This document shows positions 3,310 to 49,437 of a DNA stretch of 64,000 nucleotides, piece by piece; within the stretch, counting starts at the first letter, position 1; each line of letters opens with the position of its first letter. The stretch is taken from assembly GCA_011525805.1 (NCBI GenBank), contig WYBR01000013.1, forward strand, positions 1 to 64,000. The letters are read 5' to 3'. The translations under genes and the position numbers were made by a program. Origin of the DNA: Vicinamibacteraceae bacterium (GTDB lineage: Bacteria > Planctomycetota > Phycisphaerae > Phycisphaerales > UBA5793). The notes under the pieces are model-generated. The model worked only from the letters and a program-made list of their open reading frames with translations, did not search any database and had not been told where the DNA came from.

Positions 3310-3529
3310 GGAATGACCCCTCGATAAGAAGCGTCGTTCCTCGATGATCTCCGCGACGGACCGCCCCCGCCCACGAGCGGCCGCACGGACCCTCCGGACC
3401 TCGAGCGCCTCGCCCGCCGGCGCGCCGGCGGGCGCGACGACTGAACCGTTCCGACCGGGCCTATCGTACAGCGCCAAACTCGCGGGGTCATCAGAGAGAC
3501 GCCCAAGGCCTGACGGGAGGATGCACGCG

Positions 3530-4678
3530 ATGAAGTGGATGGAGCAGTCGCGGCGCCGCGCGTGTACGGCCGCGGCTTCGGCCCTCGCAACGGCGGCGCT
3601 GATCGCCGTTCCCGCGCCCAGCCGCGCCAACGAGACGGACCAGTTTCTCCTGCCGACTGACCGTCCGCTCGCCGACGTGGGCGCGGCCATCTCGATGGCC
3701 CACTACCTCGTTCTCGAAGACTTCGTGAACCGCGCCAACGACCGCATCGAGCGTGCCAGGCGGGCGCGAAGCGACACGCGCGGCCGGCAGGCGATCGCCG
3801 AGGCGCACTCGCCCGTGGCCGTGGCGAACCACGTCCGAGCCGCGTTCGGACCGGGCTTCTTCGAGACGCTCGAACTGGAGAACGCCTTTCGATCATCGGG
3901 GGCGAGGAGCGTCTACGCCGGCCGCCCCGCCGCGTACAAGACGTCCAACTGGATCTACTCATCCGTTCACCTGCCTTTCGATCCGCGCAAGATTCCCCTG
4001 TCGCTACCCTCCTCGACGATCCGCGTCTTCGATCACTTCGTGGGGACGGACAAGTTCGGGCATTTCCACGATCTGGGACACCTCTACCACCAGGACTACC
4101 GCAACCTCTGCCGCGTCGGCGTCGAGCCGGCCGAGGCGCACCGCCGCGTCGTCGAGTTCTACACCCGCGGCCCGATCTCGGAGGCGGGCGCGATCGGCTT
4201 CTTCGCCACGGGCGTCTTTTCCAACGCGGACCTCGCGGCCAACTACCTCGGCTTCAAGTTCTACCTCAACCTCACGGAGCCGGTGAGGCTCGAAGGCGTC
4301 GAGCATCCGCCGCTGCTCATCCGCATCGGCGACCACTGGGCGTTGAACCGCCACGTGCGGCCGGAGTCGGACTTCTTCCGCCCCTTCGTCTCCGACCACT
4401 GGAACGAAGCGCTCAACCCGTGCGTGTACGAGTGGGGCGCGGCGGGGCCGATCGCCAGGAAACTGCGCGACCATGCCGACCAGATCCTCACCGTCTACGC
4501 CGACGAGAACGGCAACAAGCGGCCTCGCGAATGGTTCATCGAGAAGGCGAAGTCGCTCGTCACGTACTTCGGCGAGAACTACGGCCACCTTGGACTGGAG
4601 AAGGCGACGGTCACGATCGCCTCCTGCTGCTTTGAGCCGCCGAGCGAGGAGCCGACGGCCGAAAGCGAGCGGACCTGA
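3530..4678 (+). CDS. secreted protein of unknown function
   Basis: About 382 residues. The signal peptide has a basic n-region and an Ala-rich core ending near PSRANETD. The mature part is rich in aromatics and histidines. A distinctive stretch GTDKFGHFHDLGHLYHQDYR contains several closely spaced His/Asp residues that could bind a metal, although no known enzyme family could be assigned. Two in-frame ATGs lie at 3521 and 3530. GGGAGG directly abuts the first but is nine bases from the second, so 3530 is the better start. The gene is divergent from the small lipoprotein gene across a 220-bp gap in which no clear promoter was found. Confidence 0.75.
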   Translation: MKWMEQSRRRACTAAASALATAALIAVPAPSRANETDQFLLPTDRPLADVGAAISMAHYLVLEDFVNRANDRIERARRARSDTRGRQAIAEAHSPVAVANHVRAAFGPGFFETLELENAFRSSGARSVYAGRPAAYKTSNWIYSSVHLPFDPRKIPLSLPSSTIRVFDHFVGTDKFGHFHDLGHLYHQDYRNLCRVGVEPAEAHRRVVEFYTRGPISEAGAIGFFATGVFSNADLAANYLGFKFYLNLTEPVRLEGVEHPPLLIRIGDHWALNRHVRPESDFFRPFVSDHWNEALNPCVYEWGAAGPIARKLRDHADQILTVYADENGNKRPREWFIEKAKSLVTYFGENYGHLGLEKATVTIASCCFEPPSEEPTAESERT

Positions 4679-33622: not shown

Positions 33623-35221
33623 ATGACCATCGACCTGCACCACCGCGTCACTCTCAAGCACGACACAAACCAGGCGCTGGGAATCGGCCGCTTCGCCGTG
33701 GACTTCATGTCGGGCAAAATCGGCAAGCCGGATCAGGCCGTCTTTGAGAGGGTGGCCCTTTTCCACACCGATTCCGTGCTCTGCGGCCTTTCGGCGCTGG
33801 CGCTGCGGACCAGCGCGCCGACCGTCCTGCGCGACGAGGCGCTCGGCTATCCTCACGCCGAAGGCGCGGCCGTCTTCGGGTCGCGTCAGCGCGTTCACCC
33901 CGAAAAGGCCGTCGTCGCCAACTGCTCCGCCGTGCGCGAGTGGGATTCGAACGGGACCAATTTCGGGTACAACCCCGACCTCGGCCACACGGCTGGCGAG
34001 TTCGGGCACAACGACTTCTACCCCGTCGTGATCGCGGCGGCGCAGATGCGCGGCCTCGACGGGCCCGCCGCGCTGCGCGGCATGATTCTCCTCGACGAGA
34101 TTCGCGGCCGACTCGCCGAGGTCTTCTCCCTCAAGTCCTACAAGATCGATCACGTCGTGCACGGCGCCATCGCCTCGGCCGCGACCTTCGGCGCCATGAT
34201 GGGCGCTTCGCCCGAGCAGATTGAGTCGGCGATCGGCATGGTCGTCGCCCACTACATCCCCTTCCGCGCCATCCGCGCCGGCAAGCAGTTGAGCGATTCC
34301 AAGGGCGCCTCGGCAGCCATCAGCGCCGAGGTCGCCGTCCTTTCGATGCGGCGCTCGATGCGCGGCTTCGTCGGCCCGCGCGACATCTTCCGCAACAAGG
34401 AAGCCATCTTCCGCCTCAACGAGCCGACCGAGGGCGATCGCTCTCCCTTCGACATCGTCCTCGCCCACAGCGGCGAAAAGTTCGCCGTGATGGGCATGCA
34501 CTTCAAACTCGGCCTCTACGAGCACCAGTCGGCCGGGGCGCTGCAGGGGCTCATCAACCTCCTGCGGCAGTCGCCGGCGCTGCTCAACGAGCCGACCGGC
34601 CGGCACATCCGCTCCATCGTCATCAAGGCCTACCAGCCGGCCTTCGGCATCATCGGCGATCCCGCCAAGCGCGACCCGCACACGCGCCAAAGCGCCGACC
34701 ACTCGATGGTCTACATCGTCGCCACGATGCTGCGCAAGGCGCTCGAACTCGCCGCCGCAAAAGGCTCCACGCACCTCGCGGAGGGCAGCGACGGCTACTG
34801 GAAGTCCCTCATGCTCGCGCCGCAGGACTACAGCGAAGAGGCGATCTACAACAGCGACACCCGCCGCCTCATGGAGCGCATCGCCTTCGAGCACGGCGGG
34901 CCGGAGTACGACGCGAAGTACCCCGACGGCATCCCCACCAGCATCGTCATCACCGACGACCAGGGCCGAAAGCACGACAGCGGCCTGGTCATGTACCCCG
35001 CCGGCCACGCCCGCAGCACCACCGCCGACCTGCGGAGCATCCTCGATCACAAGTTCCGCCTGCTCGGCTCCCTGGCGGTCGAGAATACCGATGCGCTGAT
35101 TGAGCGCCTCGATCTCGCCGACCGGTCGGCCGATGAGATCAGAAGCCTGTATGATTTTCAGATCGCCCGGCGCGAGCCGATCGACGCTCAGCCGGAGTCC
35201 GCACCCGTTGAGATGGCCTGA
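33623..35221 (+). CDS. prpD: 2-methylcitrate dehydratase, MmgE/PrpD family
   Basis: 532 residues. It begins in the typical helical domain (ALGIGRFAVDFMSGKIGKPD) and contains the family motifs AVREWDSNGTNFGYNPDLGH, GHNDFYPV and HVVHGAIASAATFGAMMG. The enzyme dehydrates 2-methylcitrate to 2-methylaconitate in propionyl-CoA breakdown. It is first in an operon with prpB and prpC. The stop is only three bases before the mntA start. Confidence 0.93.
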   Translation: MTIDLHHRVTLKHDTNQALGIGRFAVDFMSGKIGKPDQAVFERVALFHTDSVLCGLSALALRTSAPTVLRDEALGYPHAEGAAVFGSRQRVHPEKAVVANCSAVREWDSNGTNFGYNPDLGHTAGEFGHNDFYPVVIAAAQMRGLDGPAALRGMILLDEIRGRLAEVFSLKSYKIDHVVHGAIASAATFGAMMGASPEQIESAIGMVVAHYIPFRAIRAGKQLSDSKGASAAISAEVAVLSMRRSMRGFVGPRDIFRNKEAIFRLNEPTEGDRSPFDIVLAHSGEKFAVMGMHFKLGLYEHQSAGALQGLINLLRQSPALLNEPTGRHIRSIVIKAYQPAFGIIGDPAKRDPHTRQSADHSMVYIVATMLRKALELAAAKGSTHLAEGSDGYWKSLMLAPQDYSEEAIYNSDTRRLMERIAFEHGGPEYDAKYPDGIPTSIVITDDQGRKHDSGLVMYPAGHARSTTADLRSILDHKFRLLGSLAVENTDALIERLDLADRSADEIRSLYDFQIARREPIDAQPESAPVEMA

Positions 35222-35224
35222 GAA

Positions 35225-35524
35225 ATGATCCACCCCGACCTCCAGTTTGATCGCGAGCGGCTCGCGGACATCTGCCGGCGCTACGGCGTGCGCGAGTTGT
35301 GCCTTTTCGGCTCGGCGGTGCGCGACGACTTCGGGCCGGAGAGCGACATCGACCTCCTGGTCGAACTCGAGCGGAGAAGTTGGGACGATTTCTTCGACCT
35401 GAAGTTCGCCCTGGAAGACCTGTTCGGACGTCCGGTGGACCTGATTGACGGCCGGGACGGGATTCGCAATCCAGTCCGCAGACGCAGCATTCTGCCTTCC
35501 CTGGAGCGCCTCTATGCCGCTTGA
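35225..35524 (+). CDS. mntA: MntA-type nucleotidyltransferase antitoxin (intact motif)
   Basis: 99 residues. The minimal nucleotidyltransferase motif is complete: Gly29-Ser30 in LFGSAVRDDF and Asp41/Asp43 in SDIDLLV. Enzymes of this family AMPylate the partner HepT on tyrosine and so neutralise it. The gene starts three bases after prpD stops and overlaps hepT by eleven bases, so it is translated as part of the prp message. Confidence 0.88.
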   Translation: MIHPDLQFDRERLADICRRYGVRELCLFGSAVRDDFGPESDIDLLVELERRSWDDFFDLKFALEDLFGRPVDLIDGRDGIRNPVRRRSILPSLERLYAA

Positions 35525-35870
35525 TCCCAACGACGTTGCGCGCCTTCGCGACATCCTTGCGGCGGCGGATCGCGTTGCAAAGTTCACGGCCGGCATGGAC
35601 TGGCATGAGTACGCAGGCAATGAGATGGCCCAGTCTGCCGTCGAGCGAATGCTGGAGATCGTCGGGGAAGCGGCTCGCAGCCTGTCAACCGAAGTCAAGG
35701 CTCGCTGTCCCGCGATCCCATGGCGGAAGATCATCGCTCAGCGTCATGTTCTGGCCCACGAATACGGCACAATCAAGCACGACCTGATCTGGCAGGTCAT
35801 CACCAAGCGACTTCCAGAACTCCGCTCACAGGTTTCCGAATTGCTTCATTCAGAGGATCTCGATGACTGA
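35514..35870 (+). CDS. hepT: HepT-type RNase toxin (intact RX4HXY)
   Basis: 118 residues, an all-helical HEPN domain. The catalytic RX4HXY motif is intact as Arg77-x4-His82-x-Tyr84 (RHVLAHEYG). HepT cleaves RNA unless AMPylated at the motif tyrosine by MntA. It overlaps mntA at the start and the prpB start at the end (eight bases), so the pair is wedged between two metabolic genes with coupled translation. Confidence 0.88.
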   Translation: MPLDPNDVARLRDILAAADRVAKFTAGMDWHEYAGNEMAQSAVERMLEIVGEAARSLSTEVKARCPAIPWRKIIAQRHVLAHEYGTIKHDLIWQVITKRLPELRSQVSELLHSEDLDD

Positions 35871-36756
35871 GTTGCCCGGGTATTGGCTTCGCCGATCCAT
35901 GAGCAAGGGCCTCGTCCTCGCCCCCGGCGCCTTTGATGCGCTCGTCGCCCGCGCCGTCGGACGGGCCGGCTTCGAGGCCGTCTACGTCTCCGGCGGCGCG
36001 ACCGCCAACGTCGCGGGCTATCCCGACATCGGGCTCATCTCCCTCACCGAAATGTGCCGCACCATCCGCGAGATCAGCCAGGCCTCGGGCCTGCCCACCA
36101 TCGTCGACGCCGACACCGGCTACGGCGAGGTCGAGTCCGTCATCCGCACCACCGTCGAGTACGAACGCGCCGGCGCCGCGGCCATGCACATCGAGGACCA
36201 GGTCTTTCCCAAGCGCTGCGGCCACCTCGACGGCAAAGAACTCATCCCCATCGACTCGATGTGCGAGAAGATCGCCGCCGCCGCGTCCCACCGCGTCACG
36301 AACGACTTCGTCCTCATTGCGCGCACCGACGCCGCCGGCGTGGACGGCTTCGACGCCGCCGTCGAGCGCGCCAACGCTTACCGCGCCGCCGGGGCCGACG
36401 TCATCTTCCCTGAAGGACTTACGAGCGAGAAGGAGTTCCGCGAGATGGCGCAGCGCTCGCCGGGGCTTCTGCTCGCCAATATGACTGAGTTCGGCAAGAC
36501 GCCCCAGATCACCGCCGATCGCTTCGCGCAACTCGGCTACCGCCTCGTCATCTTCCCGCTGAGCCTCATGCGGCTGGCGATGGGGCACGTGGTGCGCGGC
36601 CTGGCGGTCCTGCGGCGCGATGGCTCCCTCGCTTCGCTGCTCAACGAGATGCAGACGCGGGCCGAACTGTACGATCTACTGGATTACCGGCCGGGCGAGG
36701 CGTGGAGTTATCCGGGCCGCAGCGGCCGCGACCTTCGCGACCGCGGCCGGTCCTGA
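35863..36756 (+). CDS. prpB: 2-methylisocitrate lyase
   Basis: 297 residues in the isocitrate lyase/PEP mutase superfamily. The catalytic loop FPKRCGHLDGKELIP carries the KRCGH signature. The metal-binding region is DADTGYGEVESV, and ARTDAAGVDGFDAA is also typical. It splits 2-methylisocitrate to pyruvate and succinate. The ATG lies inside the last codons of hepT; a downstream ATG at 35899 would remove residues that relatives keep. prpC follows after 45 bp. Confidence 0.92.
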   Translation: MTELPGYWLRRSMSKGLVLAPGAFDALVARAVGRAGFEAVYVSGGATANVAGYPDIGLISLTEMCRTIREISQASGLPTIVDADTGYGEVESVIRTTVEYERAGAAAMHIEDQVFPKRCGHLDGKELIPIDSMCEKIAAAASHRVTNDFVLIARTDAAGVDGFDAAVERANAYRAAGADVIFPEGLTSEKEFREMAQRSPGLLLANMTEFGKTPQITADRFAQLGYRLVIFPLSLMRLAMGHVVRGLAVLRRDGSLASLLNEMQTRAELYDLLDYRPGEAWSYPGRSGRDLRDRGRS

Positions 36757-36801: not shown

Positions 36802-37926
36802 ATGCCCGACAAACAAGCCGCCGCCGCCATCGCCTCCGGACTCGAAGGCATCGAGGCCGGCACGACCTCCGTCTGCTCCGTCGAGCAGGGGCAACTGCTC
36901 TACCGCGGCTACGAGATCCACGACCTTGCCGAGCACGCCACGTTCGAGGAAGTCGCGCATCTGCTGCTCGTGGGGCACAAGCCTTCGACCAGCGAACTCG
37001 CTGCCTTCAAGCGCGAACTGGCGCCGCTGCGAAACGTGCCCGAGTGGATCCTCGACGTCGTCCGCCGCGTGGCGCCCAAGTCGCACCCGATGGATGCCCT
37101 GCGCACCGGCGTGAGCCTGCTGAGCCACATCGATCCCGACGTGGCCGACAACTCGCTGGCGGCCAATCTCCGCAAAGCCAAGCGCCTTCTCGCGGCCATT
37201 CCGACAGTCATCGGCGCCGGGCAGCGCGCCATCGACGGCAAGGCCACCGTCGCCCCCGATCCGTCCCTTGGGCACGCGGCCAACCTCCTCTACGTGATGA
37301 CGGGCGAGAGGCCCAGCGACCTCATCGCGCGCGCGATGGACGTCTCGCTCATTCTCTACGCCGAGCATGAGTTCAACGCCTCCACCTTCACCTGCCGCAC
37401 CATCGCCGGCACGCTCAGCGACATGCACTCGGCTGTGTGCGGCGGCATCGGGGCCCTCAAGGGCCCGCTCCACGGAGGCGCCAACGAGGCTGCCATGGAG
37501 ATGCTCAAGGAGGTCGGCACGCTCGAAAACGTCCGCGCGTTCATGGACAACGCCTTCGCTACGAAGCGCAAGATCATGGGATTCGGCCACCGCGTCTACA
37601 AGAACGGCGACCACCGCGCTCCGATCCTCCGCGAGTGGGGACTCAAACTCACGAAGGAGCGGCCGCAGTTCAGGAAGTGGTTCGACATCGGCGACGCGGT
37701 GCAGAAGATCATGCTCGACGAGAAGAAGATCCACCCGAACGTGGACTTCCCCTGTGGCCTGACGTACTTCACGATGGGCATCCCCGTGCCGCAGTACACG
37801 CCGATTTTCGTCGCGTCCCGCATCACCGGCTGGTGCGCCCACATCATGGAGCAGCACGCCGACAATCGCCTCATCCGGCCGCTGAGTGTCTACACGGGGC
37901 CGGCGAAGCGAAGTTGGAACGGGTAA
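36802..37926 (+). CDS. prpC: 2-methylcitrate synthase / citrate synthase
   Basis: 374 residues, the short dimeric citrate-synthase type. The catalytic residues are in place: His in GPLHGGANEAAMEML, His in FGHRVYKNGD, Asp in NVDFPCGLTYF. It condenses propionyl-CoA (or acetyl-CoA) with oxaloacetate. The methylcitrate role comes from its place behind prpD and prpB; sequence alone does not exclude citrate synthesis. GGGGGAA lies about eight bases before the ATG. Confidence 0.9.
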   Translation: MPDKQAAAAIASGLEGIEAGTTSVCSVEQGQLLYRGYEIHDLAEHATFEEVAHLLLVGHKPSTSELAAFKRELAPLRNVPEWILDVVRRVAPKSHPMDALRTGVSLLSHIDPDVADNSLAANLRKAKRLLAAIPTVIGAGQRAIDGKATVAPDPSLGHAANLLYVMTGERPSDLIARAMDVSLILYAEHEFNASTFTCRTIAGTLSDMHSAVCGGIGALKGPLHGGANEAAMEMLKEVGTLENVRAFMDNAFATKRKIMGFGHRVYKNGDHRAPILREWGLKLTKERPQFRKWFDIGDAVQKIMLDEKKIHPNVDFPCGLTYFTMGIPVPQYTPIFVASRITGWCAHIMEQHADNRLIRPLSVYTGPAKRSWNG

Positions 37927-48752: not shown

Positions 48753-49070
48753 ATGCTTCCACCCATCGCGCAGAACCTCGGCAACCTCCGCGCGCTGTGC
48801 GCCAAGCATCGCGTGAAGTCGCTCAGCCTCTTCGAATCGGCCGCGACCGGTGCGTTCCAGCCCGGCCAAAGCGATCTCGATTTTCTCGTCGAGTTTGAGG
48901 CGCAGCCGCGTCGCGGCTTCGAGGATGTGTATTTTCTTCTTGCGGACGATCTGGAGCGACTCTTCGGCTGCGCCGTGGACCTGGTCGAACGGCAGGTGAT
49001 CGAACGCTCGTCAAACCCTTATCGCCGCGAGAGCATCTACTCCAGCGTGGTCTCCCTCTATGCCGCGTGA
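48753..49070 (+). CDS. MntA-type nucleotidyltransferase, Gly-to-Glu in active motif
   Basis: 105 residues, homologous in layout to mntA at 35.2 kb. The active motif reads LFESAATGAF...SDLDFLV: Ser29, Asp41 and Asp43 are kept, but Glu28 (codon GAA) replaces the glycine of the GS pair. One base change would restore Gly. The Gly-Ser turn normally holds the nucleotide phosphates, so AMPylation may be weak or lost. It overlaps the next hepT-like gene by eleven bases. Confidence 0.82.
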   Translation: MLPPIAQNLGNLRALCAKHRVKSLSLFESAATGAFQPGQSDLDFLVEFEAQPRRGFEDVYFLLADDLERLFGCAVDLVERQVIERSSNPYRRESIYSSVVSLYAA

Positions 49071-49437
49071 TGACGCCGCCTGGCTTGCGGACATGCTCAC
49101 GGCGTGCCGCAAGGTCGCGCGGTATGTCGCGGGAAGGTCCTTTGAGCAGTTCACTCTCGATGAGCGGACCCAGGACGCCGTGTTCCGGTCGCTGGAGATC
49201 ATCGGCGAGGCGGCGGGCAACGTCTCGGAGGTCACGCAGAACGAGTGCCCCGACATGCCCTGGGCGCGGATCGTCTCGTTTCGCAATCGGCTCGTTCACG
49301 GCCACTTCGAGATCAGCCTCGATATTGTGTGGCAGATTGCCACGACGGAGGTCGAACCGTTGGCACACCGCCCGTCGCAGGTCGTGTCGTTGAGCGGCGG
49401 GAATCGCGCGAGCGACGGTTCCGGTCGCCCCGACTGA
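49060..49437 (+). CDS. HepT-type protein, Tyr-to-His in RX4HXY
   Basis: 125 residues, HEPN fold. The motif reads RNRLVHGHFEI: Arg75 and His80 are present, but His82 (codon CAC) stands where the AMPylated tyrosine should be. One base change would restore Tyr. The RNase Arg/His pair is kept, so the protein could still be a nuclease but could not be AMPylated at the usual residue. It lies between the ArsR-methyltransferase gene and ahcY. Confidence 0.82.
   Translation: MPRDDAAWLADMLTACRKVARYVAGRSFEQFTLDERTQDAVFRSLEIIGEAAGNVSEVTQNECPDMPWARIVSFRNRLVHGHFEISLDIVWQIATTEVEPLAHRPSQVVSLSGGNRASDGSGRPD

Follow-up and report, generated by a model that had tools for sequence, protein, structure and literature searches.

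The HepT/MntA pair of Shewanella oneidensis (SO_3166/SO_3165) constitutes a type VII toxin–antitoxin (TA) system (Yao 2020, PMC7641770), and that article gives RX4HXY in HepT and GSX10DXD in MntA as the signature motifs of the system and states that no predicted TA module is more abundant in prokaryotes than HEPN/MNT. An MNT-HEPN module has also been described in the lysine biosynthesis operon of Thermus thermophilus HB8, where it is absent in strain HB27 (Makarova 2009, PMC2701414), and "TAS modules inserted within operons" are mentioned in a further source (PMC6504116). Since the Thermus insertion was reported in 2009, insertion of such a module into an operon is not new in kind. The pair analysed here resembles the S. 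oneidensis system in combining PF01934 and PF01909 genes, with the antitoxin gene first, in carrying both motifs, and in family profiles that reach the solved chains 6m6u and 5yep; it differs from that system in its low identity, in scores below the NCBIfam equivalog cut-offs, in its nesting within a metabolic operon, and in being known here from sequence. It shares with the Thermus module the location of a HEPN/MNT pair in a biosynthetic operon and the polymorphism between relatives, whereas the operon here is that of methylcitrate, the host is a planctomycete, and no exchange of toxins at one site is described in the accessible portion of the Thermus report. A literature search by titles and abstract openings found no report of a HEPN/MNT pair in the methylcitrate operon, nor of HEPN/MNT toxin exchange at one site. 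The reading considered probable here is that a HEPN/MNT (type VII-like) pair was inserted between prpD and prpB, rides on operon transcription, and later had its toxin half replaced.

The window, that is, the whole stretch of 64,000 nucleotides analysed, represents contig C77 of the 4.54-Mb assembly G000. The features of the site are as follows:

33623..35221, plus strand: prpD (MmgE/PrpD family, putative 2-methylcitrate dehydratase), by Pfam match
35225..35524, plus strand: mntA, predicted MNT-family antitoxin gene of 99 aa, by Pfam match, GSX10DXD intact
35225..35363, plus strand: mntA 5' block (catalytic half), common to the sister genome G002, with host-like GC3
35364..35898, plus strand: putative replaced cassette (mntA 3' half, hepT and the start of prpB, about 12 codons), over which nucleotide homology to G002 is not continuous
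35514..35870, plus strand: hepT, predicted HEPN-family RNase toxin gene, 118 aa from the ATG at 35514, RX4HXY intact
35514..35524, plus strand: mntA/hepT overlap of 11 nt, common in the family
35863..35870, plus strand: hepT/prpB overlap of 8 nt
35863..36756, plus strand: prpB, methylisocitrate lyase, by Pfam match, TIGR02317 just missed
36802..37926, plus strand: prpC-like 2-methylcitrate/citrate synthase, by profile matches

The sequence-only reading had placed an intact mntA-hepT pair between prpD and prpB, with a gap of 3 nt between the prpD stop and the mntA start, overlaps of 11 and 8 nt, and a prpB start inside hepT. This arrangement is exact by coordinates, prpB beginning at 35863 and hepT ending at 35870, and the two proteins retain both motifs, GS-AVRDDFGPES-DID in MntA (GSX10DXD) and RHVLAHEY in HepT (RX4HXY), together with Pfam matches to NTP_transf_2 (1.6e-13) and HepT-like (4.1e-25), the MNT gene preceding the adjacent HEPN gene. 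The NCBIfam equivalog scores of HepT and MntA (37.5 and 44.9 vs 60 bits) fall below the cut-off, so the pair was filed under the broad HEPN/MNT family and not under the NCBI equivalog. PADLOC PDC-S09 models match MntA, and no PADLOC model matched HepT at 0.001. The family profiles reached solved HEPN/MNT chains for HepT (6m6u, 1e-4) and MntA (5yep, 1e-4), the best MntA profile match among PDB chains being 1wot (6e-16). For a single-sequence structure model of HepT (mean pLDDT 77), the six best matches by Foldseek were all HEPN toxins, among which the HEPN/MNT structures 7ae2, 7ae6, 7ae8 and 7ae9 ranked best, with probability up to 1.00, TMq of about 0.6, 16-19% identity and weak E-values (0.08 and up, none below 0.001).

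The prp genes were assigned at different levels of precision. PrpD matches Pfam MmgE/PrpD (E 8e-32), yet scores far under the NCBIfam PrpD equivalog cut-offs, and PrpB is 2 bits short of the TIGR02317 cut-off (352.4 vs 354.4). As prpB adjoins a 2-methylcitrate/citrate synthase gene, it is reasonable to regard the prp genes as a methylcitrate operon. Direct inspection of the sequence revealed a Shine-Dalgarno-like AGAGGA within hepT, just upstream of the hepT/prpB overlap. Between 33300 and 38200, no promoter-like site was detected, and the three terminator-like sites were all on the minus strand (2.6 expected by shuffling), with none on the coding strand.

The prpB gene was found in all six family genomes examined (G000-G005), and the pair was present at the prp site in G000 and G002 and absent in the other four. 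Three genomes of the same genus (G001, G003 and G004) showed a clean junction formed by the prpD TGA, one base and the prpB ATG, while in G005, of the same family, prpD and prpB are separated by a short gap without a pair. Presence or absence thus varies between relatives at an otherwise syntenic junction, and because prpD-prpB occurs without the pair in relatives, mntA-hepT at this site is, on this comparison, an insertion. The clean insertion put forward in the sequence-only reading, along with a comparison of the prp locus in close relatives, was borne out in this way; its other proposal, that the pair had been taken up to sense or stabilise the operon, found nothing in its support, and no result obtained here speaks for propionate sensing or regulation.

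The closest genome, G002 (prpB 89.6%, prpC 92%), carries its pair at the same site, and the comparison of both sites disclosed a difference between the toxins of the two sisters that the sequence-only reading had missed. Counted from the mntA start, G000 and G002 are homologous between -810 and +139 (958 nt, 86%) and again from +674, about 36 nt inside prpB (89%), and no match was found between these points except a short island at the mntA 3' end and hepT start. The maximum chi-square break was located at mntA nt 140, just past the DxD codons, where identity drops from 0.89 to 0.33, with 0 of 1000 permutations as high. At the protein level, codons 1-46 of MntA are 89% identical and codons 47-99 are 55% identical; HepT is 42% identical, and prpD and prpB past codon 14 are both 90% identical. 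At fourfold sites, 16/20 are identical in the mntA block, a level comparable to prpD (138/194) and prpB (111/154) and one that shared descent would predict; the value for HepT is 11/25. Within these two assemblies, there is a strong case for a mosaic relationship between the prp-site pairs of G000 and G002, which suggests that the toxin half was replaced and the antitoxin front retained at an operon-nested site. G002 is a fragmented metagenome-assembled genome (MAG), with the prp site on a 17-kb contig and contamination of about 5%, for which reason a false assembly join is conceivable.

Insertion followed by replacement was weighed against the idea that different pairs entered a favoured site on two separate occasions, since the HepTs of G000 and G002 are no nearer each other than to the HepTs of other families, and the pdhA/pdhB junctions described below show that sites can recur. 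This alternative appears quite unlikely: the protein segments encoded by the mntA 5' block share 89% identity, the block is continuous with the prpD homology, identity to either is at most 68% among the remaining MntA N halves of the set, and G000 and G002 share the start of a derived PrpD tail, the C-terminal tail of G000 PrpD being unlike the tail in the clean-junction genomes. What counts against replacement is that a donor for either HepT was sought in 397 class genomes and the nearest sequences were only ~50% identical.

Toxins can evolve quickly, and a single old pair under strong diversifying selection on the toxin and the antitoxin C half could have reached a similar divergence without any replacement. 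The conserved island at the mntA/hepT junction, kept in both genomes, and the MntA C halves, which are mutual best matches (58%), would fit such a history. Against it stand the sharp break at mntA nt 140, the step in GC3 between block and cassette, and the normal divergence of HepT at a control locus, which together make it the least probable of the explanations considered, and very improbable in itself. The control was another orthologous pair in the genus (G000:C1, G001, G003 and G004), with HepT 69-98% and the MntA C half 76-98% identical; as HepT does not outrun MntA there, the pattern at the prp site points to replacement and not to fast drift.

GC is 0.59-0.64 over the pair vs about 0.68 in the flanks. 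GC3 changes between block and cassette: in G000 it is 43/46 in the block and 117/171 in the cassette (p 3e-4), with 264/297 in prpB; the corresponding values in G002 are 40/46, 124/174 (p 0.036) and 252/296. The block equals prpB in both genomes (p 0.45 in G000 and 1 in G002). Among 97 pairs (2 of 99 were dropped because they had no GS motif), the prp pairs ranked 1 and 6 in the GC3 step from the block to the rest, the mean difference between the block and the mntA 3' part being 0.004. Both cassettes look foreign, and the simplest reading of these values is that an adapted resident front half received a new back half and toxin in the G000 and G002 lineages, although the second replacement event, that of the G002 lineage, is only likely because of the p of 0.036 for its composition break. 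A general link between tight nesting and a GC3 step was also considered, as all 4 tight pairs fell in the top 6 of 97, but this was a post hoc observation and was not reproduced in further pairs. In 96 further pairs, the strict caller gave 0 tight pairs and the relaxed caller two, neither with a GC3 step; of 92 pairs in the first set, the relaxed caller classed 7 as tight, and the GC3 step was small in three of these.

A scan of 110 prpB loci, among which L065 appears to duplicate G004, found a pair beside prpB in three: G000, G002 and L067 (JADFIR010000018.1). The L067 pair (3323-3980) lies directly upstream of prpB, the upstream gene is not prpD, and its PrpB is sister to the window's family and L066 (clade of 8, support 0.966). 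The two halves of its MntA are 62% and 57% identical to the window MntA, both ranking 1 (n=195), while its HepT is 42% identical to the window HepT, at rank 32, with a best other match of 56%. Judged by these ranks, in L067 the antitoxin and the site travel together and the toxin does not. Because a prpB-linked pair also occurs in this related lineage, the pair may have been inserted before the genus arose and been lost since, as opposed to having been gained recently.

Pairs were also found at pdhA-pdhB junctions in the family of G031, the member that prompted this survey. A pdhB match was present in 39 of 41 genomes, and the 30 loci examined contained different pairs in four (L340, L352, L359 and L364), belonging to four genera, and mntA alone in a fifth (L363); the fair count, without G031, is three pairs and one lone mntA in 29. 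The HepTs of these pairs are 24-48% identical among themselves, hepT lies 3-23 nt from pdhB (-4 or 20 in one), and the carriers are spread over a pdhB tree with weak support. They may represent independent insertions or an ancestral insertion with losses. At another locus (L061, G046:C21), a pair was observed after pdhA; it is followed by a gene with a match to RlaP, of the RNA repair polymerase-beta family, and the distance to pdhB is about 4 kb.

The recurrence of pairs beside prpB and at pdhA-pdhB is one of the observations that would favour recruitment of the pair as a link between propionate (or pyruvate-node) metabolism and growth arrest, with translational coupling setting the levels of toxin, antitoxin and PrpB. 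Tight spacing on both sides is rare as well (4 of 94 pairs by a home-made, rough gene caller), two of the four being the prp site, and the hepT/prpB overlap is also seen in L067 (4 nt). This recruitment is nevertheless unlikely. The overlap is not kept in G002, where it is replaced by an 18-nt gap, four family genomes have the operon without the pair, and other pairs flanked on both sides are nested by unrelated genes (HypD and an AIR-synthase-type protein, LytB/RlmN, PGM/PurS-like, MutS, and LepA). Pfam was checked for the neighbours of 20 of the 41 both-flanked pairs; 15 of these 40 ORFs were without a match at 1e-8, so the caller may have counted stretches that are not genes. The mntA/hepT overlap of 11 nt is the commonest spacing in one set (55/99 pairs; 28/99 in a second set) and is therefore uninformative on the prp operon; this, with the loss of the hepT/prpB overlap in G002, leaves the reading of tight spacing as the mark of a regulatory link without support. 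Pairs at contig edges were left out of these analyses (5/99 in the tight-spacing count; 7/99 and 3/99 in another count).

The observed pair, insertion polymorphism, mosaic structure and composition break would be accounted for if a HEPN/MNT pair entered between prpD and prpB and hitchhiked on operon transcription. By analogy with the family, MntA would adenylylate the Tyr of the HepT RX4HXY motif and so hold the RNase inactive. The advantage that we infer is that nesting in a metabolic operon would provide steady co-expression and make clean loss harder. Recombination entering mntA just 3' of the active-site codons would then have replaced the mntA 3' half together with hepT; one sister lineage at least, and probably both, would have undergone this. 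The resulting antitoxin would be chimeric, its catalytic half resident and its other half new and matched to the toxin that came with it.

An exchange of the HEPN/MNT toxin half at a fixed operon site would be new, and the prp site bears on how cells tolerate a newly arriving toxin. Sisters that share the catalytic half of the antitoxin, and not the back half or the toxin, offer a direct test of whether toxin recognition resides in the back half, the catalytic half being generic. In addition, the recurrence at pdh and prp makes it feasible to ask whether nesting in operons that are hard to delete allows TA pairs to persist. A wider, more doubtful extension is that antitoxins are anchored in operons and toxins are exchangeable, the MntA front being resident at prpD-prpB and pdhA-pdhB while the back half and HepT are swapped at the active-site edge. 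If it held, a chimeric antitoxin would be matched to each new toxin, and recurrence at pyruvate-producing and pyruvate-consuming operons would mean that the sites are selected and not random.

Class-wide recombination at the MNT active-site code was considered and rejected. A HepT-like match occurs in 202 of 397 class genomes, and the DNA of the active-site segment gave short matches (70-100% identity) in 37 of 198. Synonymous identity of the block, at 0.384 vs 0.332 expected from outside it, is scarcely above background, so protein constraint explains these short matches.

Other pairs were noted in the window and in the genus. A second MntA/HepT-like pair is located at 48753-49437 (plus strand) of the window, between an ArsR/methyltransferase gene and ahcY, with ES in place of GS in MntA and RX4HXH in HepT, so that the change affects the modifying motif and the acceptor Tyr alike. 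It is absent in G001 and G002, where the flanking genes are adjacent, and was not detected in the stretches of G003 and G004 examined. Elsewhere in the same assembly (G000:C6:14211-14492; L004, L329), a pair lies between genes for 2-oxoacid dehydrogenase E1-beta and E2, neighbours named from their sequences, and none was found at this junction in G001-G004. The orthologous pairs L037 (G003:C15) and L038 (G004:C35) are nearly identical from mntA nt ~65 onward, with unlike mntA fronts and near upstream DNA, and more distant upstream DNA that matches again; the prp DNA of G003 and G004 is only 88% identical, against these near-identical cassettes. The intragenic mntA breaks in G003:C15/G004:C35 and at the prp site are on opposite sides of the active-site code. 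For the most part, the other related pairs of the set could be aligned without interruption, and the mntA breaks can thus be regarded as individual events.
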